Below, piece by piece: positions 26,392-36,105 of a DNA stretch of 39,233 nt. Every line of letters begins with the position of its first letter. Positions within the stretch are counted from its first letter, which is position 1. The DNA lies in contig QHUJ01000124.1 of the NCBI GenBank assembly GCA_003221895.1, positions 1 through 39,233 on the forward strand. Reading direction: 5' to 3'. Position numbers and translations under genes: made by a program. A model generated the notes under the pieces. The model did no database searches. It was given only the letters and a program-made list of their open reading frames with translations, and had not been told where the DNA came from. The stretch is from Gemmatimonadota bacterium (GTDB lineage Bacteria; Gemmatimonadota; Gemmatimonadetes; Gemmatimonadales; GWC2-71-9).

Positions 26392-27446
26392 GGCGTTGTT
26401 CCTCCCTCCAGCGAAATGAGGTCGACCACGGGGTTGCCGAGATATCGGCTGCGGCCGCTGCGGACGCGCGCCGTAATCTGCATTTCGACGAGCGGCGTCA
26501 GGGCGCGGAACGCGGGCAGCCTACTGTCCGGGACGACGACGTAGACGAAGCCGCGCTCGGGCAGCGGGCCGCGCGCGAGCACATAACTCGCGCCGGCGGG
26601 AATATCGGGGCGCAGCTCGTCCGCCTTTTGGATCGCGATGAACTCGAGCCGCCAGCGCAGCGCCTGGCCGACGTACCGTTGCGGCTCCGCGCGCAGCTCG
26701 GCGGCGGTGACACCGAGCATGACGCCTGCGGGCGCCACCTGCAGATCGCCGCCTTTGACCCATCCTTCATATTGCACGCGCGTCCACTCACCATTGCGAC
26801 TCAACACACGCACCGGGACGTCGGCCGCAATCGTGCCCGCTTCGGGGCCGTCGGGGGCGCGATAGAGCGTCGTCATGCGCACGGGCTGCGCTCGGCTGCT
26901 GTCCACGCGCGAGGTGTCGCCGGCCCGTGCCGCCGGCGTGGGCGCTGCCGGGGTGGAGGCGGTGTCACGGGTTGTATCGGCGGTACGCGTCGAAACCACG
27001 TCGGCAATGGGCACCAGCGAGCTGCGTTGCACCCAGCCGTCGCGTCTCACGTGAACCCACCGGCTCCCAGAGCTGTCCGTGCCTACGCGCTTCAAGCCGA
27101 ACCCCTGGGCCAGCTCGGCAATCAGCGGGCCCGCCGGGGCGGCGCGGAGATTCTCGTTGGGGGCGTGTGTGACTAGCAGATCGAAGTCGGGGCGGTCGCT
27201 GGGCCCGACGGAAGTCGCGAAGATCCAGCCGTCGAGCGTTACCTGCATCCAGTCGTTGCGCGTGGTGCCGGCGGAGACGACAGAGCCGCGCGCCAGCCGC
27301 GCGACCCGCCGGCCCGCGACATCCTGATAGAACCATGTGTTATCGGTGTTGACGCGATAACGCATGGCTCCCTGCGCGGCCGCACGCTGCGGAGCCGCAA
27401 GGCTCAACGCCGCTAGTAGCGCGGGAATGATCTGGCTAACTTGCAT
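26388..27446 (-). CDS. Exported protein with bacterial SH3-like domains
   Basis: A 352-residue protein. Residues 1-24 are a signal peptide ending in AAAQGA. At least two, probably three, SH3b-like units follow: NTWFYQDVAGRRVARLARGS with WMQVTLDGWIFATSVG; ENLRAAPAGPLIAELAQG with RWVHVRRDGWVQRSSL; and YRAPDGPEAGTIAADVPVRV with WTRVQYEGWVKGGDL. Such domains often bind cell-wall peptides. The C-terminal third (LRWRLEFIAIQKADELRP onward) is a separate beta-rich domain that I do not recognise. A CATATT hexamer lies 7 bases before the ATG. The start codon is only 10 bases from that of the divergent gpmI. Confidence 0.78.
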   Translation of the reverse strand: MQVSQIIPALLAALSLAAPQRAAAQGAMRYRVNTDNTWFYQDVAGRRVARLARGSVVSAGTTRNDWMQVTLDGWIFATSVGPSDRPDFDLLVTHAPNENLRAAPAGPLIAELAQGFGLKRVGTDSSGSRWVHVRRDGWVQRSSLVPIADVVSTRTADTTRDTASTPAAPTPAARAGDTSRVDSSRAQPVRMTTLYRAPDGPEAGTIAADVPVRVLSRNGEWTRVQYEGWVKGGDLQVAPAGVMLGVTAAELRAEPQRYVGQALRWRLEFIAIQKADELRPDIPAGASYVLARGPLPERGFVYVVVPDSRLPAFRALTPLVEMQITARVRSGRSRYLGNPVVDLISLEGGTTP

Positions 27447-27453
27447 CCCCTTC

Positions 27454-27459
27454 AATATG
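27454..27459 (-). promoter_or_regulatory. Candidate -10 hexamer of a leaderless promoter (SH3-domain gene)
   Basis: CATATT on the minus strand ends 7 bases before the ATG at 27446 and overlaps the ATG of the divergent gpmI gene at 27457. AAGGGG directly abuts the ATG and is too close for a normal ribosome site. On the plus strand TAACTT at 27437-27442, inside this gene, could serve gpmI with a leader of only a few bases. Confidence 0.35.
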
Positions 27460-29004
27460 ACAATGCGCGGCGGCACACGCACCCCAGTGGTCCTTATTGT
27501 GCTCGACGGCTGGGGCTTCCGGCCCGGCCGCCAGGGCAACGCGATCGAGCTGGGCAGGACGCCGACGTGGCATCAGCTGTGGGATCGCGCGCCCCGAACC
27601 CTGCTCGAGGCGTCGGGACTCGCGGTGGGCCTGCCCGCAGAACAAATCGGGAACAGCGAAGTCGGCCATCTGAACCTGGGAGCGGGACGGGTTGTCCCTC
27701 AAGACATTGTTCGCATCTCACAGGCTATCGATGCTGGGGAGTTCTTTCGCATCCCCGCGCTACTGCAGCTGATCGAGGATACACGTCGGCACGACGGCAC
27801 GCTGCACGTGATGGGGTTGATCGGGACGGGCGGCGTCCACGCGCTCGACAAGCATCTGCTCGCCGCGGTCGAGCTGGGTCGCCGCGCGGGACTGCAAGTG
27901 GCGATTCACGCCTGGCTCGACGGGCGCGACACGCCACCGAAGTCGGGTCTGGGCTTCATGCAGCATCTGACGGCGGCGGTCAACGGAAACGGCGGCGGTC
28001 GGGCGCTCATCTCGACCGTGATCGGTCGCTACTACGCGATGGATCGCGACAAGCGCTGGGAGCGGACCAAGCTCGCGTACGATGCCATGGTAAAAGGAAT
28101 CGGCGTCCCGGTTCCCGATCCCCTGACGGCGATCAAGCAGGCCTACGATGCGGGCGAGACCGACGAGTTCGTCAAACCGCGCGTCATCAGCGGCGCGCCG
28201 CTCCTCAGAGACGGCGACGGGATCTTCTGCTTCAATTATCGCGCCGATCGCATGCGCCAGATCGTGCGCGCGCTCGCCGCTCCGGAGTTCGACGGGTTCG
28301 ATGTGCGCGGCCGCCCCAGAGTCACACTCGTCTCGATGACGCGCTACGACGCGACGCTGCCCTTCCCCGCCGCATTCGAGCCGATGGTGTTGTCGCGCAT
28401 CGTGGCCGAGGTGCTCGCGGAGAACGGCAGGACGATGTTCCGCACCGCAGAGACGGAGAAATACGCGCACGTCACCTACTTCTTTAATGGCGGGTACGAG
28501 CCGCCCTACAAGGGTGAAGAGCGGCTGCTCGTGCCGTCACAGAAGGTGGCCACGTACGACCTCATGCCGGAGATGAGCGCGCCCGGCGTCACGGATGTGC
28601 TGTGTAACGCGATCGCCGGCAAGCAGCACGACTTCATTCTGTGCAACTATGCCAATGGAGACATGGTAGGGCACTCCGGGGTATTGGCAGCCGCGGTGAA
28701 GGCGGTCGAAACGGTCGACGAGTGTCTCATCCGCGTCCTGAAGACGGCTGAGACCGCCGGCGCGACGGTGATCATCACCGCGGACCACGGCAACTGCGAG
28801 CTGATGATCGATCCGGCGACGGGTGGGCCGCACACCGCGCACACGACCAACCCGGTGCCCCTCGTGATCATCGGCGAAGGGGCTGGCCGGGGTCACCTAC
28901 GTAGGGGCGGCTCCCTGCGCGACGTGGGACCGACGATCTTACAGCTCATGCGAATTGACCCGCCAGCGGAAATGACGGGGAAGGACCTTCGAGAGGAGCT
29001 ATGA
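27457..29004 (+). CDS. gpmI: 2,3-bisphosphoglycerate-independent phosphoglycerate mutase
   Basis: A 515-residue two-manganese enzyme that interconverts 3- and 2-phosphoglycerate in glycolysis. D17 in VLDGWGFR and the catalytic S67 in GNSEVGHLNLGAGRVV are in place. Further blocks are HAWLDGRDTPPKSG, GRYYAMDRDKRWER, FNYRADRMRQI, EKYAHVTYFFNGG, NYANGDMVGHSG and ADHGNCELM. The ATG at 27457 was chosen over the earlier frame start at 27364, which lies in the divergent SH3 gene; an ATG at 27463 is also possible. It is the first gene of a run that continues to the window end. Confidence 0.96.
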   Translation: MTMRGGTRTPVVLIVLDGWGFRPGRQGNAIELGRTPTWHQLWDRAPRTLLEASGLAVGLPAEQIGNSEVGHLNLGAGRVVPQDIVRISQAIDAGEFFRIPALLQLIEDTRRHDGTLHVMGLIGTGGVHALDKHLLAAVELGRRAGLQVAIHAWLDGRDTPPKSGLGFMQHLTAAVNGNGGGRALISTVIGRYYAMDRDKRWERTKLAYDAMVKGIGVPVPDPLTAIKQAYDAGETDEFVKPRVISGAPLLRDGDGIFCFNYRADRMRQIVRALAAPEFDGFDVRGRPRVTLVSMTRYDATLPFPAAFEPMVLSRIVAEVLAENGRTMFRTAETEKYAHVTYFFNGGYEPPYKGEERLLVPSQKVATYDLMPEMSAPGVTDVLCNAIAGKQHDFILCNYANGDMVGHSGVLAAAVKAVETVDECLIRVLKTAETAGATVIITADHGNCELMIDPATGGPHTAHTTNPVPLVIIGEGAGRGHLRRGGSLRDVGPTILQLMRIDPPAEMTGKDLREEL

Positions 29005-29714
29005 CGGTACGACGGTACGTTGTCGGCGGGCTGCTCGGGCTGAGCGTCGTAGCGTCGTATGACGTGGCGTCGGCTCAAGTGGGCCACAACCCCGCCAGCT
29101 CTCCCTATCGCGACGTTTTGTTGCGCTCGGGTCCCGCGTTCTTCGGCGGCCATCTTTCGGGAAGTCGCGGCAGCGCCGACGCCGGATTCAGTAACGGCGA
29201 CGTGGTCGGCGTGCGCTACGAGCTGGCCGCGGGGAAAACGCTGCTCGCCCAGTTCAACGGGACGTACGTCAAAGGCGACCGCTTCATTCTCAACCCGGCT
29301 GCCGATTCCTCCTCACCGCAACGCAAGACCGGTCCCTATGCGGCGGACATCTTCATCATCGATCTGATGCTTCAGCTGAGGCTCACCGGGGCAAAATCGT
29401 GGCGCGGATTCGCGCCCTACGCCGGCGCCGGGATCGGGGTCGGATTCGAGACGACGGCACCGCCCGACACCACCCAGAGCGGCTACAGATTCGGCACCAA
29501 GTTCACGGTGTCCGGCGCCACGGGCATTCGGTGGTATCCTTTGCGTCGAGTGTCGCTTACCGGCGATGCCCGCTTCGTGCTCTGGAAGGAGAGCTATCCC
29601 ATGTCGTTCCACCAGACGGCGCCGGACGGCTCTCGCATCCTTCCCCTCATTCACGACCTGAGCGAATGGACATTTCATCCCGTGCTCAGCGTCGGACTGG
29701 GATGGATTTTCTAG
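29001..29714 (+). CDS. Outer-membrane beta-barrel protein (OmpA-like or OmpW-like fold)
   Basis: A 237-residue protein. Residues 1-25 are a signal peptide ending SAQ. Amphipathic strands with a Gly-rich turn pattern follow: YELAAGKTLLAQFNGTYV, DIFIIDLMLQLRLTG, FAPYAGAGIGVGFE, FTVSGATGIRWYPLRRVSLT. The C-terminal residue is Phe (GLGWIF), the usual signal for BAM-dependent insertion. Probably eight strands. The start overlaps the gpmI stop as ATGA. It may be a small pore or a structural protein; function is unknown. Confidence 0.78.
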   Translation: MTVRRYVVGGLLGLSVVASYDVASAQVGHNPASSPYRDVLLRSGPAFFGGHLSGSRGSADAGFSNGDVVGVRYELAAGKTLLAQFNGTYVKGDRFILNPAADSSSPQRKTGPYAADIFIIDLMLQLRLTGAKSWRGFAPYAGAGIGVGFETTAPPDTTQSGYRFGTKFTVSGATGIRWYPLRRVSLTGDARFVLWKESYPMSFHQTAPDGSRILPLIHDLSEWTFHPVLSVGLGWIF

Positions 29715-30397
29715 CGGAAGGGTTCCGGCGAGCGTGGGACCTGCTCGTCGGGGGTGATGCCGAGGTCTATGGGATCGCGCTCCTCACGCTGAGAGTTGCC
29801 GTCGTCGCGACAACCATCTCCTGCGTTCTCGGCCTGCCGCTCGGATACTTCCTCGCCACACGCCGCTTCTGGGGACGGCGCGCCGCTCTCACCATGGTGA
29901 ATACGGCGCTCGCCTTTCCCACCGTCGTCGTCGGACTGCTGCTCTACGGCCTGCTCTCGCGGCGCGGCCTGTTAGGCGACCTCGGCTGGCTCTACACCTG
30001 GCAGGCGATCGTCGTCGGTGATGTGTTGCTCGCGCTGCCAATCGCAGCGGCACTGTCGGCGGCGGCGATCCAAGGCGTCGACCCGCGGATCCGCCGCACC
30101 GCGGAAACCCTCGGCGCCGGGTCGTGGCTGACCGCGTGGACGGTCACGCGCGAAGCGCGGTTCGCCCTCGCCGCGGTGATCACGGCGGCGTTCGGCCAGG
30201 TCGTCGCCGAGATCGGCACCGCGATGATCGTCGGCGGCAACATCCGCGGCTCGACCCGCACGTTGACGACCGCGGTCGCGCTCTACACCTCGCAGGGAGA
30301 CTTCGGCCTGGCGCTCGCGCTGGGCCTCATTTTGCTAGTGCTGGCGCTCCTCGTGAACGTCGCACTACAGGTCTTGCAAGGTCGCGGCAGTGATTGA
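29702..30397 (+). CDS. tupB: ABC transporter permease, TupB-like (tungstate/molybdate)
   Basis: A 231-residue permease with about five to six membrane helices. The cytoplasmic coupling loop is AETLGAGSWLTAWTVTREAR, and the end region AEIGTAMIVGGNIRGSTRTL is typical of TupB/WtpB. The ATG at 29702 overlaps the upstream barrel gene by 13 bases. Together with the ATPase behind it and the molybdenum-cofactor genes further on, it is best read as a tungstate or molybdate importer. No periplasmic binding protein is encoded beside it. Confidence 0.85.
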   Translation: MDFLAEGFRRAWDLLVGGDAEVYGIALLTLRVAVVATTISCVLGLPLGYFLATRRFWGRRAALTMVNTALAFPTVVVGLLLYGLLSRRGLLGDLGWLYTWQAIVVGDVLLALPIAAALSAAAIQGVDPRIRRTAETLGAGSWLTAWTVTREARFALAAVITAAFGQVVAEIGTAMIVGGNIRGSTRTLTTAVALYTSQGDFGLALALGLILLVLALLVNVALQVLQGRGSD

Positions 30398-31388
30398 GCT
30401 GCGGGGGGTGCGGCACCGGTACCAGGCACGCGTCGTTCTCGATCTCGAACATTTCAGCGTGCCGCGTGGCGCGTTGATCTCGGTCGTCGGCCACAACGGC
30501 GCCGGGAAGAGCACGCTGCTGCGCTTGCTCGCGCTGCTCGAGCCTCCCACCGAGGGCCAGGTCCTGCTGGACGGGAAGGTCGTGCCGAAGCGGCCAGCGG
30601 CGGCGCTGCGCCGCCGCGTGACACTCGTCGAGCAGCGGCCGATTCTGTTTCGCGGTACGGTCCATGACAACCTGTGCTTCGGTCTGGAGGCGCGCGGCAT
30701 GGGCAGCGCCGCCAAAGGAATCGTGGCTGACGTCGCCGAACAGCTCGGTCTCACCACGCTGCTGGGCCGCCGCCGTCATGAACTGTCGGACGGCGAGGTC
30801 CAACGCGTGGCGGTGGCGCGCGCGCTCGCGGTGCGACCCGATGTGCTCCTGCTGGACGAGCCTGCCAGCTCCGCCGATCGAGCGGCCGCGGGGGCGTTGT
30901 ACCGCGCGCTCGTCCGCGAGCGCGCCGAGCGCCCGATCGCGGTCTGCGTGGCCTCGCACCAGCTCGAAGACGCGTACCGCTGGGCCGATGACATCCGCGC
31001 GCTCGCGGAAGGCCGGCTGTCTCCCGTGACACCCGAGAACCTCTTCCGTGTCGAGCTGGCACCCGGCGAGGGCGTCAAGCAGGCGCGCGTCGGTGACATC
31101 GACATCGCCGTGATGACCGATCGCTCCGGTCCCGTGGTGGTCGCCGTTCCGCCGACCGACATCTTCGTCAGCCGCGAGCCGCTCGCGTCGTCGGCGCGCA
31201 ACGTCTTCAAAGGACGCGTGACCGCAATGGCGATCGAGCGGCGCGGGGCCGGTGTTCACGTGCGGGCCGATGTCGGTGGAGTCGAGCTGGTCGCGGCGAT
31301 CACCGCCGAGGCGGCGCGCGATCTCGCGCTCGCCCCCGGCAGTCCGGTCGTGTTCTCTTTCAAGGCCACGGCGGTCCAGGTATTCTAG
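30390..31388 (+). CDS. tupC: ABC transporter ATPase with C-terminal TOBE/Mop-like domain (TupC/ModC-like)
   Basis: A 332-residue ATPase. Walker A is GHNGAGKST (34-42), the signature is LSDGEVQR (a variant of LSGGQ), and Walker B is VLLLDEPAS, with the switch His in ASHQLEDAYRWAD. After about residue 225 comes FRVELAPGEGVKQARV then VAVPPTDIFVSREPLASSAR and NVFKGRVTAM, matching the oxyanion-binding TOBE/Mop region of ModC-type ATPases, where tungstate or molybdate can bind and regulate. The GTG start at 30390 overlaps the permease end by 8 bases. Confidence 0.88.
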   Translation: MIELRGVRHRYQARVVLDLEHFSVPRGALISVVGHNGAGKSTLLRLLALLEPPTEGQVLLDGKVVPKRPAAALRRRVTLVEQRPILFRGTVHDNLCFGLEARGMGSAAKGIVADVAEQLGLTTLLGRRRHELSDGEVQRVAVARALAVRPDVLLLDEPASSADRAAAGALYRALVRERAERPIAVCVASHQLEDAYRWADDIRALAEGRLSPVTPENLFRVELAPGEGVKQARVGDIDIAVMTDRSGPVVVAVPPTDIFVSREPLASSARNVFKGRVTAMAIERRGAGVHVRADVGGVELVAAITAEAARDLALAPGSPVVFSFKATAVQVF

Positions 31389-31391
31389 GAC

Positions 31392-31790
31392 ATGCCAACG
31401 GCCTATCTCACGCGGGTTGTGGAGTTTACGGCGACTCACCGCTTTCCCGACACTCCCGACTTCGCGGGCGCGACGGCAGACCACAGCCATCTTTATAGGT
31501 GCGCAGTCACGGTCAAGGGCCGATTCGATCCCGCTCGCGCCGGCGTGATGAGCCTCAAAGCTCTCGACGCGCTGCTCACACGTGAAGTCGTGGCGCGGTT
31601 CGATGGCCGCCACATGAATGAGGACATCGCGACGTTTGCTGCCGGCGCGTGGCTCGCGACTGGTGAAGGACTCGCGGTCTACCTGTGGGAGCGCATCAGC
31701 GAGGCCGGTCTGCCGAGCGGCGTGACGCTTCATCGGGTGCGCGTGCAGGAGGGAGAGACACTCTATTCCGAATACTGCGGCGAACCGTAG
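31392..31790 (+). CDS. Divergent QueD/6-pyruvoyltetrahydropterin synthase homologue
   Basis: A 132-residue T-fold protein. The three zinc His are kept: FTATHRF (one His) and DHSHLY (two His). The C-terminal Glu region (VQEGETLYSEY) and GEGLAVYLWERI also fit. However, the catalytic Cys four residues before the first His of H-x-H in QueD is Ala here. The DHxxLN motif reads DGRHMN, so the usual catalytic His is lost. It is therefore unlikely to carry out the normal CPH4 synthase reaction. It lies 3 bases after the oxyanion transporter and 7 bases before fdhD, so a pterin or molybdopterin-related role is possible but unproven. Confidence 0.8.
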   Translation: MPTAYLTRVVEFTATHRFPDTPDFAGATADHSHLYRCAVTVKGRFDPARAGVMSLKALDALLTREVVARFDGRHMNEDIATFAAGAWLATGEGLAVYLWERISEAGLPSGVTLHRVRVQEGETLYSEYCGEP

Positions 31791-31797
31791 AGGCCGG

Positions 31798-32517
31798 ATG
31801 CAGGCCGACTCGGCCATGGTCGAAGAATGGCCGGTCTGGCTCGAGGTGAACGGCGAACCGGCGGTGACGTGGATGTGCACACCGGATCAGCTGGAGGAGC
31901 TGGCGGTCGGGTGGCTGCACGGCGAAGGATACATCGCGTCGCTCGACGATTTGATCCAGCTGCGTCCCTGCGCGCCGGATCTCGGCTTCTGGGCGGACGT
32001 GAAGCCGGAGGGCGTTGCTCAGGTGAAGGGGGAAAACCGTAAGCGCGTGCTCGCGTCGGGCTGCGGCGCCGTCGCAACGATGCTCGCTGACCCCAACGCG
32101 ATGACGCACACGCCGGCACGAGGCGAGCCGCCCCCAGCCGACACGTTTCGCACGCTATTCAAACAACTGTTCTCGAGCGGCGTGCGCTACAATGAAACGG
32201 GCGGCATTCATGCCGCGGCGCTCACGGACGGCGCGGTCCTGCTGTTTCACTCCGAAGACATCGGGCGCCACAATGCCGTGGATAAGGTGATTGGTGCCGC
32301 GGTGATCGCGCGGACGCCGATCGTCGGGCGTGGCTTGCTCGTAACGGGCCGCATCTCCGCGGAGCTCGCGTTCAAGGCGGCGCGAGCCGGGCTCGCATGG
32401 GTGGCGACGCCGAGCGTTCCGTCAACGCTGGCGGGGACAATCGCGCAGCGCTCGGGAATGGTGCTCGTCGGGCGAGCGGTGAGCGGTGCGCCGCATGTGC
32501 ACCGGCCAGAGGGATAG
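31798..32517 (+). CDS. fdhD: FdhD-type formate dehydrogenase sulfur-transfer accessory protein
   Basis: A 239-residue FdhD protein. Known FdhD takes sulfur from IscS and sulfurates the bis-MGD cofactor, which activates formate dehydrogenase. Family blocks are EELAVGWLHGEGYI, NETGGIHAAAL, HSEDIGRHNAVDKVIG and TGRISAELAFKAARAG. The redox motif that is CxxC in E. coli reads C89-G-A-V here, so only one Cys remains. The ATG at 31798 is the first start after the QueD-like stop. No formate dehydrogenase gene lies in the window, so the client enzyme is elsewhere. Confidence 0.93.
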   Translation: MQADSAMVEEWPVWLEVNGEPAVTWMCTPDQLEELAVGWLHGEGYIASLDDLIQLRPCAPDLGFWADVKPEGVAQVKGENRKRVLASGCGAVATMLADPNAMTHTPARGEPPPADTFRTLFKQLFSSGVRYNETGGIHAAALTDGAVLLFHSEDIGRHNAVDKVIGAAVIARTPIVGRGLLVTGRISAELAFKAARAGLAWVATPSVPSTLAGTIAQRSGMVLVGRAVSGAPHVHRPEG

Positions 32518-32937
32518 GTGATCGCTCAGGACGAGCTGCGCTCGCTGCTCACGCGGGCCCGTACCATCGCGGTCGTGGGCTTGTCTCCCAAACCCATTCG
32601 ACCCAGCCACTCCGTGGCCGATTATCTCCAGCGCTCGGGATACACGATCGTGCCCATCAATCCGGGACATGACACCATCCTTGGAGAGCGGAGCTATCCC
32701 AACCTCGCCGCCGCGGCCAAGGATCATTCGATCGACATCGTGAACATTTTTCGACGCAGCGAGCATGCGGCCGCCGTGGTCGACGAAGCGCTCGCGCTCC
32801 GCCCCCGCCCCCAGCTGATCTGGCTGCAGGAAGGCGTGGTCGATGCCGGGGCGGAAGCGCGCGCGGCAGCAGCCGGCGTTCCGTTCGTGATGGATCAGTG
32901 CCTGGCTGTCGAACACAGTAACCTCGAGGCTCGATGA
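32518..32937 (+). CDS. CoA-binding domain protein (YccU family)
   Basis: A 139-residue Rossmann-fold protein: IAVVGLSPKPIRPSHSVADY, then GYTIVPINPGHDTILGERSY, DIVNIFRRSEHAAAVVDEAL, and IWLQEGVVDAGAEARAAAAG with C-terminal FVMDQCLAVEH. This matches stand-alone CoA-binding proteins like YccU; the fold is the nucleotide-binding part of succinyl-CoA synthetase. Physiological role is unclear. The GTG at 32518 directly abuts the fdhD stop, and the end overlaps the next ATG by 4 bases. Confidence 0.9.
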   Translation: MIAQDELRSLLTRARTIAVVGLSPKPIRPSHSVADYLQRSGYTIVPINPGHDTILGERSYPNLAAAAKDHSIDIVNIFRRSEHAAAVVDEALALRPRPQLIWLQEGVVDAGAEARAAAAGVPFVMDQCLAVEHSNLEAR

Positions 32938-33737
32938 GACTTGCTCCGTGCGCATTGTTCGTCCTCGTCTCCATATCCACCGCGAGCGCGCAAACGCCCT
33001 CCCGCTCTCAGCTGGCCCTGACGATTCTCGCCGGCGCGGTTACCGGACACTCGCTGTCGGAGGTCGCCAGACAGCCGGTCGCGGTCGCCGGCGTCCCCGG
33101 CGACTACGACACGCTCCAACTCGTCCGTGAGATATCCTCGAGCATCGTCGTGGGTGCGTCCGCGACGTACTTCTTTTCGCCGCACCTCGGCATGCACGCA
33201 GAGATCTCGTACCTGGGGCTGCCGTACGACGACAGCTGTACCGACCTCCATGTATCGCCCACCGACAGCGGCAGGATTCAGGAGGCCTGCAACGACATTG
33301 CCGCGCGTTCCGGCGCCGGAGGAGCCATCAGTCTTTTTCTGGGCGCGACGCTGCGCGGATCCCCGGCCGGGACACTCAGCCCCTACCTGCGCGGCAACAT
33401 CGGCGTCGTCTCCACACCGCACAGCTATGTCGAAGTGCTCGGCAACTATCAGACGAACCTCGGGCCGGAGCCGGTGCTCGTCATCCAGGACCCAGGCCCG
33501 CGCAGCGGCGCACCGTTGTTTGGTCTCGCGGCCGGCATCACGCAACCGCTCGGCAAGGATGGCGGCTACCAGTTCCGGCTCGAGCTGCGCGACGCGATCA
33601 CCTCGTTCGAACAGGTGACCGGGGCCGCGGATCCCGCAACGCTGCTTGCGCCGACCGAGATCAGGACCTACCACCACTTCTCCCTGGTCATCGGGCTCGA
33701 CGTGGTCCTCGAGAAGGCGCGCGGAAGGCGCTACTAG
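32934..33737 (+). CDS. Outer-membrane beta-barrel protein, hypothetical
   Basis: A 267-residue protein. Residues 1-20 are a signal peptide (LFVLVSISTASAQ). Alternating strands with Gly/aromatic turns follow: SIVVGASATYFFSPHLGMHA, AISLFLGATLRGS, LSPYLRGNIGVVSTP and GGYQFRLELRDAIT. Two Cys at CTDLHVSP and QEACND could form a disulfide in an external loop. The C-terminus GRRY does not end in the usual Phe. The start forms ATGA with the previous stop. Its presence between a CoA-binding gene and mobA is unexplained. Confidence 0.72.
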   Translation: MRLAPCALFVLVSISTASAQTPSRSQLALTILAGAVTGHSLSEVARQPVAVAGVPGDYDTLQLVREISSSIVVGASATYFFSPHLGMHAEISYLGLPYDDSCTDLHVSPTDSGRIQEACNDIAARSGAGGAISLFLGATLRGSPAGTLSPYLRGNIGVVSTPHSYVEVLGNYQTNLGPEPVLVIQDPGPRSGAPLFGLAAGITQPLGKDGGYQFRLELRDAITSFEQVTGAADPATLLAPTEIRTYHHFSLVIGLDVVLEKARGRRY

Positions 33738-34343
33738 TTGCGCGGAGCGGTGCTGGCCGGCGGTGCGGCGAGCCGGTACGGCGGTCTGCCCAAAGGGTTG
33801 CTCGATGTTGGCGGCCGGCGCATTCTCGATCGCGTCGTCGACACGGTGCACGCCGTGACCGGCACCTCGCCCCTGCTCGTGGCCAATGCGCCCGACGCGG
33901 CTGCGTGGCGTCCGGACTTGGAAACCATTCCGGACACACGTCCCGGCTATGGGAGCCTCGGCGGGATTTACACCGCAGTGGCGGCCGGTCCCGACCCGGT
34001 GCTGTGCGTCGCCTGGGACATGCCGTTCGTGCCGGAGGGGCTGCTGCAATCCTTGAAGGCCGGCGCCGAATCCGGCCGCTACGATGCCTATCTTCCTGAG
34101 AGCTCCGGCCGGCGCGGGCTCGAGCCACTGTGCGCGGTGTATGGTCCGCGCTGCCGTGCGGCGATCGAGCGGCGGCTCGACAGTGGCGACTTGAAGGCCA
34201 TATCCTTCCACCCCGACGTGCGCGTCGGTATCCTCTCCCTCGCTCGAGTCAAGACGTTCGGAGACCCTGAGACGCTCTTCTTCAACGTGAACACGCCCGC
34301 CGACCTCGAGCGGGCGGAGGCCCTGTGGCGGCAACACGTATGA
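33738..34343 (+). CDS. mobA: Molybdenum cofactor guanylyltransferase MobA
   Basis: A 201-residue GT-A fold nucleotidyltransferase that attaches GMP to molybdopterin. The nucleotide loop reads LAGGAASRYGGLPKGLL, followed by IPDTRPGYGSLGGIYTA, the metal-binding AWDMPFV, and EPLCAVYGPRC. FFNVNTPADLE closes the domain. The start is a TTG at 33738 immediately after the stop of the barrel gene, since no ATG precedes the conserved N-terminus. The end overlaps mobB as ATGA. Confidence 0.92.
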   Translation: MRGAVLAGGAASRYGGLPKGLLDVGGRRILDRVVDTVHAVTGTSPLLVANAPDAAAWRPDLETIPDTRPGYGSLGGIYTAVAAGPDPVLCVAWDMPFVPEGLLQSLKAGAESGRYDAYLPESSGRRGLEPLCAVYGPRCRAAIERRLDSGDLKAISFHPDVRVGILSLARVKTFGDPETLFFNVNTPADLERAEALWRQHV

Positions 34344-34858
34344 TCTCGGTGATCGGGCTCAAGAACGCGGGCAAGACGACGTTCCTGGTCGCGCTCGCGG
34401 CGGAGCTCGTGCGCCGGAAGTTCCGCGTGATGACGATCAAGCACGGCTCGCATCCCGCGGAGATGGATCAGAAGGGCAAGGACACCTGGCGCCACTGGCA
34501 CGAAGGCAGGGCGGAGCGCGTGTTGATGGAAGCGCCCGGGCAGCGGGTCCTGTTCGAGCGCACGCCGGCGGAATCCGATCCGATCGCCCTGACGCGACGG
34601 TACCTGAGCGATGCCGACATCGTGCTGGTGGAGGGGTTCAAGCGGGCCCCCCTGCCCAAGATCGAGGTGTATCGCACGGTCGCTGGCCCCAAGCCGATTT
34701 TTGATCCGGCGGTGCACGATCCCGCCGACTGGGTCGCGATGGTCACTGACGATCGCGACGTCCGCGCCCCATTTCCGGTATTTCGCTTCAGCGATACCGC
34801 GTGGCTCGTGAGCGTGGCGAATCTCGCCTGGGACAGCGCGAAGATTTTGCCACCATGA
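34340..34858 (+). CDS. mobB: MobB, GTP-binding molybdopterin-guanine dinucleotide adapter
   Basis: A 172-residue P-loop GTPase with Walker A GLKNAGKTT, followed by VMTIKHGSHPAEMDQKGKDT and VEGFKRAPLPKIEVYR, all typical of MobB. It helps MobA in MGD synthesis or delivery. The ATG at 34340 overlaps the mobA stop as ATGA and is preferred over a GTG at 34325. Its own stop overlaps the moeA ATG in the same way. Confidence 0.92.
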   Translation: MISVIGLKNAGKTTFLVALAAELVRRKFRVMTIKHGSHPAEMDQKGKDTWRHWHEGRAERVLMEAPGQRVLFERTPAESDPIALTRRYLSDADIVLVEGFKRAPLPKIEVYRTVAGPKPIFDPAVHDPADWVAMVTDDRDVRAPFPVFRFSDTAWLVSVANLAWDSAKILPP

Positions 34859-36105
34859 CCCCCACCCCCCGCCCCCCCCCCCCCCCCACCCCCGCCGAGG
34901 CGGCCGGTCTCATCATCGGTCACTTTCGGCCGCTCGATACCGTGCATCGGCCACTGCGCGAGGCGCTCGATGCGGTGCTTGCCGAAGACGTCACGAGTCC
35001 AATCGATTTGCCGCCGTGGGACAACTCCGCGATGGACGGCTACGCGGTGCGCAGCACCGATCTCACGGGCAGCACTACGGATCTCGACGTCATCGAAACG
35101 GTGCCCGCCGGCCAATTCCCCACGCGGAAAGTCGGACCCAGGCAGGCGATCCGCATCTTCACCGGCGCGCCGCTCCCCGAAGGCGCCGACACGGTGATCC
35201 GCCAGGAGGACACCGCCCGGTCCTCCAACGGCACCGTGACCATCACGAACGCGCGCGACGCTCGCAAAAACATTCGCCGCCGCGGCGAGGATATCCACAA
35301 GGGGACGGTCGTCCTGGAAGCGGGCACGCCGCTCGGGCCTGCGCAGCTCGGTGTGCTCGCCTCGATTGCGCGCGATCAGGCGCTGGTCCATCGCGCGCCG
35401 CGCGTCGCGTACCTGGGATCGGGCGACGAGATCGTCGATCTCGATCGCAAGGACGAGATCCTTGCCGGCAGGAAGATCGCGAGCTCCAACTCTTACACCC
35501 TCGACGCGTTGATCCGGCGGTCCGGCGCCGAGCCGGTCAATCTCGGAATTGCGCGTGATACCAAGGAGAGCTTGCGCGAGCACCTCCAGGGAGCCGCGCG
35601 CGCAGATCTGGTGGTCACAACCGCCGGCGTCAGCGTGGGCGAGCATGATTTTGTGCGCGACGTGCTGCAGGAAATGGGCGGTGAGCTGAAGCTCTGGCGC
35701 ATCGCCATGCGGCCCGGCGCGCCGGTCGGCTTCGGCATGATCGGCGGTGTCCCGTGGATCGGCCTGCCGGGAAACCCGGTGAGCACGATGGTGACGTTCG
35801 AGTTGTTCGTGCGCCCCGCCATCCGCCGGCTGCAGGGTCATCGGTTGCCGTTCCGCAGGACAGTCAGGGTCGTGGTGCGCGAGCCTGTGACACTCGGACC
35901 CAAGCTGCGACACTTCCTGCGCGTTATAGTAGAGGATGGTGAGGCGCGTTTGACAGGACCGCAGGGGTCTGGCATTCTCACGAGCATGGCGCGCGCCAAC
36001 GCACTGCTCATCGTCCCCGCCGACATGCCGGTGGTCGCCGCCGGCACGGCGCTGCAGGCACTGATCCTGGACGATCCCCGGCATGTGGCGGAAGCGCCGT
36101 ATTGA
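34855..36105 (+). CDS. moeA: Molybdopterin molybdenumtransferase MoeA
   Basis: A 416-residue MoeA that inserts molybdenum (or tungsten) into adenylylated molybdopterin. Family blocks are PPWDNSAMDGYAVR, IFTGAPLPEGADTVIRQED, YLGSGDEIVD, TTAGVSVGEHDFVRDVL, RPGAPVGFGMIGGVPWIGLP and GNPVSTMVTFE. The C-terminal domain IV is complete. Codons 6-11 run through a 16-base poly(C) tract coding for Pro, so small slippage would shift the frame almost at the start. The ATG at 34855 overlaps the mobB stop as ATGA. Confidence 0.95.
   Translation: MTPTPRPPPPPTPAEAAGLIIGHFRPLDTVHRPLREALDAVLAEDVTSPIDLPPWDNSAMDGYAVRSTDLTGSTTDLDVIETVPAGQFPTRKVGPRQAIRIFTGAPLPEGADTVIRQEDTARSSNGTVTITNARDARKNIRRRGEDIHKGTVVLEAGTPLGPAQLGVLASIARDQALVHRAPRVAYLGSGDEIVDLDRKDEILAGRKIASSNSYTLDALIRRSGAEPVNLGIARDTKESLREHLQGAARADLVVTTAGVSVGEHDFVRDVLQEMGGELKLWRIAMRPGAPVGFGMIGGVPWIGLPGNPVSTMVTFELFVRPAIRRLQGHRLPFRRTVRVVVREPVTLGPKLRHFLRVIVEDGEARLTGPQGSGILTSMARANALLIVPADMPVVAAGTALQALILDDPRHVAEAPY
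34872..34887 (+). repeat. 16-base poly(C) tract at the 5' end of moeA
   Basis: An uninterrupted run of 16 C lies 17 bases after the moeA ATG and encodes consecutive Pro. It is flanked by further C-rich bases. The assembled length keeps moeA in frame. Tracts of this length are prone to slippage in replication and also to sequencing error. Confidence 0.9.

Follow-up and report, generated by a model that had tools for sequence, protein, structure and literature searches.

Results

Gene order at the locus

The window, that is, the whole stretch of DNA analysed here (39,233 nucleotides), belongs to a metagenome-assembled genome (MAG) of a soil bacterium of the phylum Gemmatimonadota, about 97% complete, and carries on its forward strand a cluster of genes running from gpmI to moeA. 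The ancient left neighbour (27364–29004), which we take to be the phosphoglycerate mutase GpmI from familiar features of that family and its conserved position, probably has its real start at about 27460. Farther to the right are encoded a TupB-type tungstate/molybdate ABC permease (29699–30397, start inferred; NF041773, 194.9 bits, below the equivalog cut-off) and, as identified by profiles, an ABC ATPase of the WtpC/TupC/ModC type with a TOBE domain (30390–31388; hereafter TupC). Three base pairs after the tupC stop codon begins the open reading frame under study (31392–31790), which starts with ATG, contains no frameshift, encodes 132 amino acids, and ends 7 bp before the start of a gene for an FdhD sulfurtransferase homologue (31798–32517; profile and motif), whose single Cys lies in an SGCGAV motif. 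The tight placement between an oxyanion importer and fdhD, pointed out in an earlier note on this DNA, is thus confirmed. Downstream, profiles identified a CoA-binding domain protein (32518–32937), a MobA-like molybdenum cofactor nucleotidyltransferase (33738–34343), MobB (34325–34858), and the molybdotransferase MoeA (34801–36105). Two putative outer-membrane-type proteins, encoded at 29001–29714 and at 32934–33737 (the latter identified from its sequence only), keep constant positions within the GpmI-to-MoeA cluster throughout the order. The Tup cluster has no gene for a binding protein, and a TupA-like PBP_like_2 protein is encoded on another contig (L168, G000:C40, 1414–2109).

A PTPS fold lacking the catalytic Cys and His

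The protein encoded at 31392–31790 was assigned by profile, alignment, tree, and fold model to the superfamily of 6-pyruvoyl-tetrahydropterin synthase (PTPS; PF01242, T-fold), its Pfam score of 62.4 bits lying above the gathering cut-off of 22.4. Its scores with the narrower NCBIfam models were well below the cut-offs, namely 36.8 versus 125.5 for 6PTHBS and 32.4 versus 89.25 bits for the QueD equivalog (TIGR03367). The closest characterised or solved proteins by sequence were rat and human PTPS (E, 3e-11), and E. coli QueD was matched at an E of 2e-4. The AlphaFold model, a monomer without metal, had a pLDDT of 96.3 and fitted best to rat PTPS (Z, 19.4; rmsd, 1.3 Å over 127 residues), with QueD at a Z of ~17.

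Residue equivalences were determined by alignment and are given in rat PTPS numbering. The first zinc ligand, His23, corresponds to the invariant His16 (31437–31439), and the second and third ligands, His48 and His50, to His31 and His33 in a His31-Ser-His33 segment (31482–31490). The pterin-ring acceptor segment Thr105-Thr106-Glu107 appears as Thr90-Gly91-Glu92 (31659–31667; PMC7546909), in which Thr105 and Glu107 are kept, and the pterin anchor Glu133 as the invariant Glu120 (31749–31751). The invariance of His16, His31, His33, and Glu120 is what would be expected of a PTPS superfamily member. The catalytic Cys42 is replaced by Ala27 (gcg, 31470–31472), the catalytic pair Asp88-His89 by Asp71-Gly72 (31602–31607), and immediately 5' of the codon for the second zinc His stands that of an acidic residue, Asp30 (31479–31481).

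Within the clade to which the protein belongs (hereafter f1-B), each of the 23 aligned members has Ala or Thr in place of Cys42 and Gly in place of His89, a recurrence that rules out chance, sequencing error, and a frameshift as the origin of the substitutions. Asp88 is also gone in some close relatives, which read LAGRSIN, LSGGHIN, or LEGRSIN. Moreover, the f1-B alignment has no other conserved Cys or His replacing the lost pair, further conserved ones occurring only at rat positions 54 and 127. The earlier note had read the catalytic Cys as Ala and the His as Gly, with the three zinc His and the substrate Glu region retained; the alignment bears this out, and within f1-B no conserved Cys or His stands in at the catalytic positions.

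Pterin and molybdenum genes elsewhere in the genome

The genome also encodes FolE, MoaA, FdhD, and several molybdopterin oxidoreductases, one of which, carrying a Tat signal and one early in-frame TGA (L166, G000:C141, 1027–4293), is probably a selenocysteine formate dehydrogenase and as such a natural client of FdhD. The best match to QueC in this MAG of about 97% completeness was a 20-bit one to a 607-aa frame taken as asparagine-synthetase-like, and we conclude that the genome has no QueC, which makes a role in queuosine synthesis unlikely; with QueD itself being another paralogue, such a role was rejected for this genome.

A second PTPS of the genome (L001, G000:C167, 1465–2313) is a long form that keeps Cys and His and is directly followed by a gene that we take to encode a protein like PCD (pterin-4a-carbinolamine dehydratase). 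PTPS is a hexamer with active sites between monomers (PMC7546909), and because of this position of the sites, the window protein might be imagined as a dead subunit that joins and tunes an active PTPS paralogue or FolE in a mixed oligomer. Candidate partners are indeed available in FolE and in the second PTPS. The gene is co-located with neither of them, however, and the remaining paralogue is of a distant, longer type; we regard this possibility as very improbable.

Intact, partial, and lost members in the phylum

In a scan of 395 Gemmatimonadota genomes, homologues, other paralogues included, were found in 352 at an E of 1e-5. Loci were read from about 90 genomes, and four types of PTPS were told apart by sequence and neighbours, the neighbouring genes being named from their own sequence unless a profile is cited. 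The type of the window protein (type i) forms a single branch against the others (SH-aLRT, 97). Type ii is PTPS-II beside FolE and an SDR gene (L101, L115, and L116) and is taken as the tetrahydrobiopterin type; type iii is the long form beside the PCD-like gene, as in L001; and type iv is QueD, found with QueC and QueE. Thus, the known reactions are covered in the phylum by other paralogues, the FolE-linked PTPS and QueD. The term QueD-like, used in the earlier note, is inaccurate in detail: the window protein is nearer to PTPS-II, and QueD is a separate paralogue. A profile scan of genome contigs for relatives outside Gemmatimonadota, which reaches close relatives only, returned Gemmatimonadetes only; as far as searched, the lineage is Gemmatimonadota-specific.

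The catalytic Cys, Asp, and His are all present in 37 of the 89 type i proteins surveyed; 49 are without both Cys and His (hereafter the lost type), and 3 are partial, with Ser for Cys in two and Arg for His in one. The intact members show CxxxxxHGH spacing. His23, His48, His50, Glu107, and Glu133 are conserved to 100% in the 89 proteins and in all other PTPS proteins aligned, and all 89 carry Thr or Ser at position 105. The lost type comprises three groups, f1-B with 23 rows including the window protein (SH-aLRT, 100), f1-A with 21 rows (98; L038, L043, L045, L046, L051, L054, L056, L057, L059, L064–L067, L076, L082, L090, L092, L094–L096, and L098), and f9 with 5 rows (99), which are nested in a lineage holding intact members. 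Parsimony on the tree, with three changes, favours what may be three separate losses of the catalytic residues, the strongly supported branches alone forcing no more than one.

Median dN/dS values by the counting method, with synonymous sites partly saturated, were 0.16–0.21 in the lost groups versus 0.22–0.26 in the intact groups, which rules out a pseudogene. Taken with the complete conservation of the zinc and pterin residues, these values, like those of the intact members, indicate a maintained lineage of PTPS pseudoenzymes and not decay. The retained zinc/pterin pocket proposed in the earlier note is supported by these invariant residues and purifying selection. Two MAG copies of the gene are broken, one by an internal loss running into fdhD (L010, 3895–4070) and one by an altered C-terminus (L019, 1501–1926), through either assembly error or real decay. 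These copies, and the absence of the gene from eight relatives (see below), would suit an evolutionary remnant heading for loss; considering the low dN/dS, the invariant pocket, and the retention across many genera, such a fate is extremely improbable.

Each lost group has acquired a residue of its own. In f1-B, Asp or Glu stands one residue before the second zinc His (His-1) in 23/23 members, as against 0/40 in the intact clades; in f1-A, rat position 106 of the pterin acceptor segment is Cys in 21/21 members (PTCE); and in f9, position 88 is His in 4/5 rows. The Cys of f1-A is a candidate for a relocated nucleophile. In f1-B, the new acid raises the foremost alternative, an enzyme of changed chemistry in which Asp/Glu30, carried by a loop two residues shorter, would take over the general-base role of Cys42 and act on the side chain of a dihydropterin, comparable with the Glu that takes the place of Cys in PTPS-III. 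The distribution of the f1-B acid, the invariant zinc and pterin residues, the separate invariant Cys of the sister clade f1-A, and the converted reaction of Plasmodium PTPS when Glu replaces Cys at this site (PMC2229834) agree with it. The Asp88-His89 pair is broken as well, however, with Gly at position 89 in 23/23 members; the acid lies at His-1 but the Glu of PTPS-III at His-3 (FRETLH); and no single replacement is common to the three lost lineages. On these grounds, we consider changed chemistry of this kind rather unlikely.

Association with molybdenum and tungsten genes

At every locus of the window's clade, the PTPS gene lies between those of TupC and FdhD, followed by the genes for the CoA-binding protein, MobA, MobB, and MoeA. 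The same TupC–FdhD slot holds an intact PTPS in family f3 and several f1 genera (L034, L039, L040, L042, L052, and L061). In family f2, an intact PTPS is found between GpmI plus the outer-membrane-type protein on one side and a DacB-like gene on the other (presumably DacB, as we recognise it), followed by MoeA, and Tup and FdhD are mostly absent; in family f4, an intact PTPS adjoins a response-regulator-like gene and TrpS. No molybdenum genes adjoin PTPS at the lost-type f9 loci.

Eight genomes (G013, G146, G216, G310, G214, G238, G239, and G330) lack PTPS in the cluster slot and keep FdhD with MobA and MobB, together with MoeA (in G216 on another contig) and in some cases TupB/TupC; G013 is 99% complete. 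In nine genomes that have the type i gene (G012, G030, G044, and six f9 genomes), in turn, FdhD gave no match, and the eight of these that were read at the residue level, all except G314, are of the lost type. Since there are clusters without PTPS and PTPS genomes without FdhD, neither Tup nor FdhD is an obligate partner, and a partnership with either was rejected as a general rule; PTPS is neither needed by the FdhD, Tup, and Mob genes nor always found with them.

The FdhD proteins of the cluster all have a single Cys (SGCGAV or SGCGSV), whether PTPS is intact, lost, or absent, and the FdhD type was dismissed as a correlate of the PTPS state. E. coli FdhD has a CxxC pair at the position of the SGCG motif.

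The earlier note had suggested a pterin-binding or pterin-modifying role linked to molybdopterin or tungstopterin, taken here as a part in their assembly together with Tup, FdhD, MobA/B, or MoeA, and had proposed to see whether homologues with the Ala/Gly substitutions stay next to fdhD, mobA, or tup genes. They do so at all loci of the window's clade, and MoaA, FdhD, and the likely selenocysteine formate dehydrogenase are present in the genome; other lost-type genomes, however, are without FdhD, and the f9 loci without adjoining molybdenum genes. Moreover, the slot is shared with an intact, presumably catalytic PTPS in sister genera, and the cluster does without PTPS in the eight genomes above. 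The suggested role thus finds no support in the wider comparison, and we judge it improbable. The molybdenum/tungsten genes are long-standing neighbours of the pseudo-PTPS, the link with the molybdenum cofactor is one of position only, and the context of the PTPS locus is older and looser than the proposed function.

Discussion

Among PTPS proteins, variants whose active sites differ have been described, namely PTPS-I, II, and III (PMC5041015; PMC2229834). The window protein is most like PTPS-II (rat, 1gtq/1b66; human, 3i2b) in fold, zinc His, pterin residues Thr105, Glu107, and Glu133, and length, and differs from it, at 31% identity, in lacking Cys42 and His89, in the loop shortened by two residues, and in gene context. 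Instead of the Cys of CxxxxxHGH and the Asp-His pair typical of PTPS-II, it has Ala27 and Asp71-Gly72, and the genomic link with FolE and a sepiapterin-reductase-like SDR belongs to another paralogue, type ii. With QueD, the CPH4 synthase of PTPS-I (E. coli, 4ntk), it shares the fold and the zinc site but not the catalytic Cys and the DH pair, and the true QueD of its relatives is a separate protein. PTPS-III, known from Plasmodium and from the bacterial folate bypass, is likewise a PTPS without the Cys that still binds zinc and pterin, and it has gained a new reaction; it has Glu at the catalytic site (ExxHGH), whereas the window protein has Ala27 in the Cys column, Thr28 at His-3, and an acid only at His-1. 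A PTPS-III folate bypass was therefore rejected. The same fold is also found in the PTPS homologue SCO6650 of Streptomyces coelicolor (3d7j; Z, 16.7), a distant relative with 18% identity to the window protein and 24.8 bits with the lineage profile. SCO6650 reportedly lacks the catalytic triad and zinc, does not carry out the PTPS reaction, and keeps pterin-binding residues; in the window's lineage, by contrast, the three zinc His are invariant. Relative to the known altered PTPS proteins, the group stands apart in its full zinc site, its size, the apparently repeated loss, and a naturally occurring range of states (intact, lost, and absent).

On balance, the window protein is probably a pterin-binding PTPS pseudoenzyme that does not turn over dihydroneopterin triphosphate, as suggested by the residue losses, the invariance of the pocket residues, the high-confidence PTPS fold, purifying selection, and descent from intact paralogues of the same slot. 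Work on Plasmodium PTPS has shown that a suitable polar side chain is required at the Cys position: Leu there gives a folded protein without detectable product, and the natural Glu gives a different product (PMC2229834). Thr105-Thr106-Glu107, for its part, receives the substrate ring (PMC7546909). From these results, we would expect the window protein to bind zinc and a reduced pterin without PTPS or CPH4 catalysis. The protein retains the residues of the Zn(His)3 site and, as pterin acceptor residues, Thr105, Glu107, and Glu133, but the Cys42-Asp88-His89 machinery for proton abstraction from dihydroneopterin triphosphate has been lost. The usual hexamer and the binding of zinc and reduced pterin would persist, the PTPS and CPH4 reactions would be absent, and the protein would act through binding rather than through the ancestral chemistry, as a carrier, a sensor, or a partner subunit of another pterin enzyme. 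Two points count against this explanation: the new invariant Asp/Glu before the second zinc His could be a catalytic base, and the loss of the gene in several relatives indicates that it is dispensable.

More speculatively, up to three lost lineages may have arisen in one phylum, each marked by a new conserved polar residue in or close to the pocket (the His-1 acid of f1-B, Cys106 of f1-A, and, in most f9 rows, His88). By losing PTPS catalysis, they might have yielded a pterin-binding protein, either a sensor or carrier or else a novel lyase for pterin side chains, that might supply or protect a pterin pool shared with molybdopterin synthesis; we offer this idea as a tentative and somewhat doubtful one.

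Automatic annotation would label such proteins 6-pyruvoyl-tetrahydropterin synthase or QueD. They form a large conserved group that, judged by its residues, would be unable to use the known PTPS chemistry and would nevertheless have kept the whole ligand pocket. The molybdenum neighbourhood is, as a caution, a poor guide to their function. With intact, partial, and lost members and with absence of the gene, one locus offers a natural series in which to test the role of a PTPS fold once the catalytic residues are gone.
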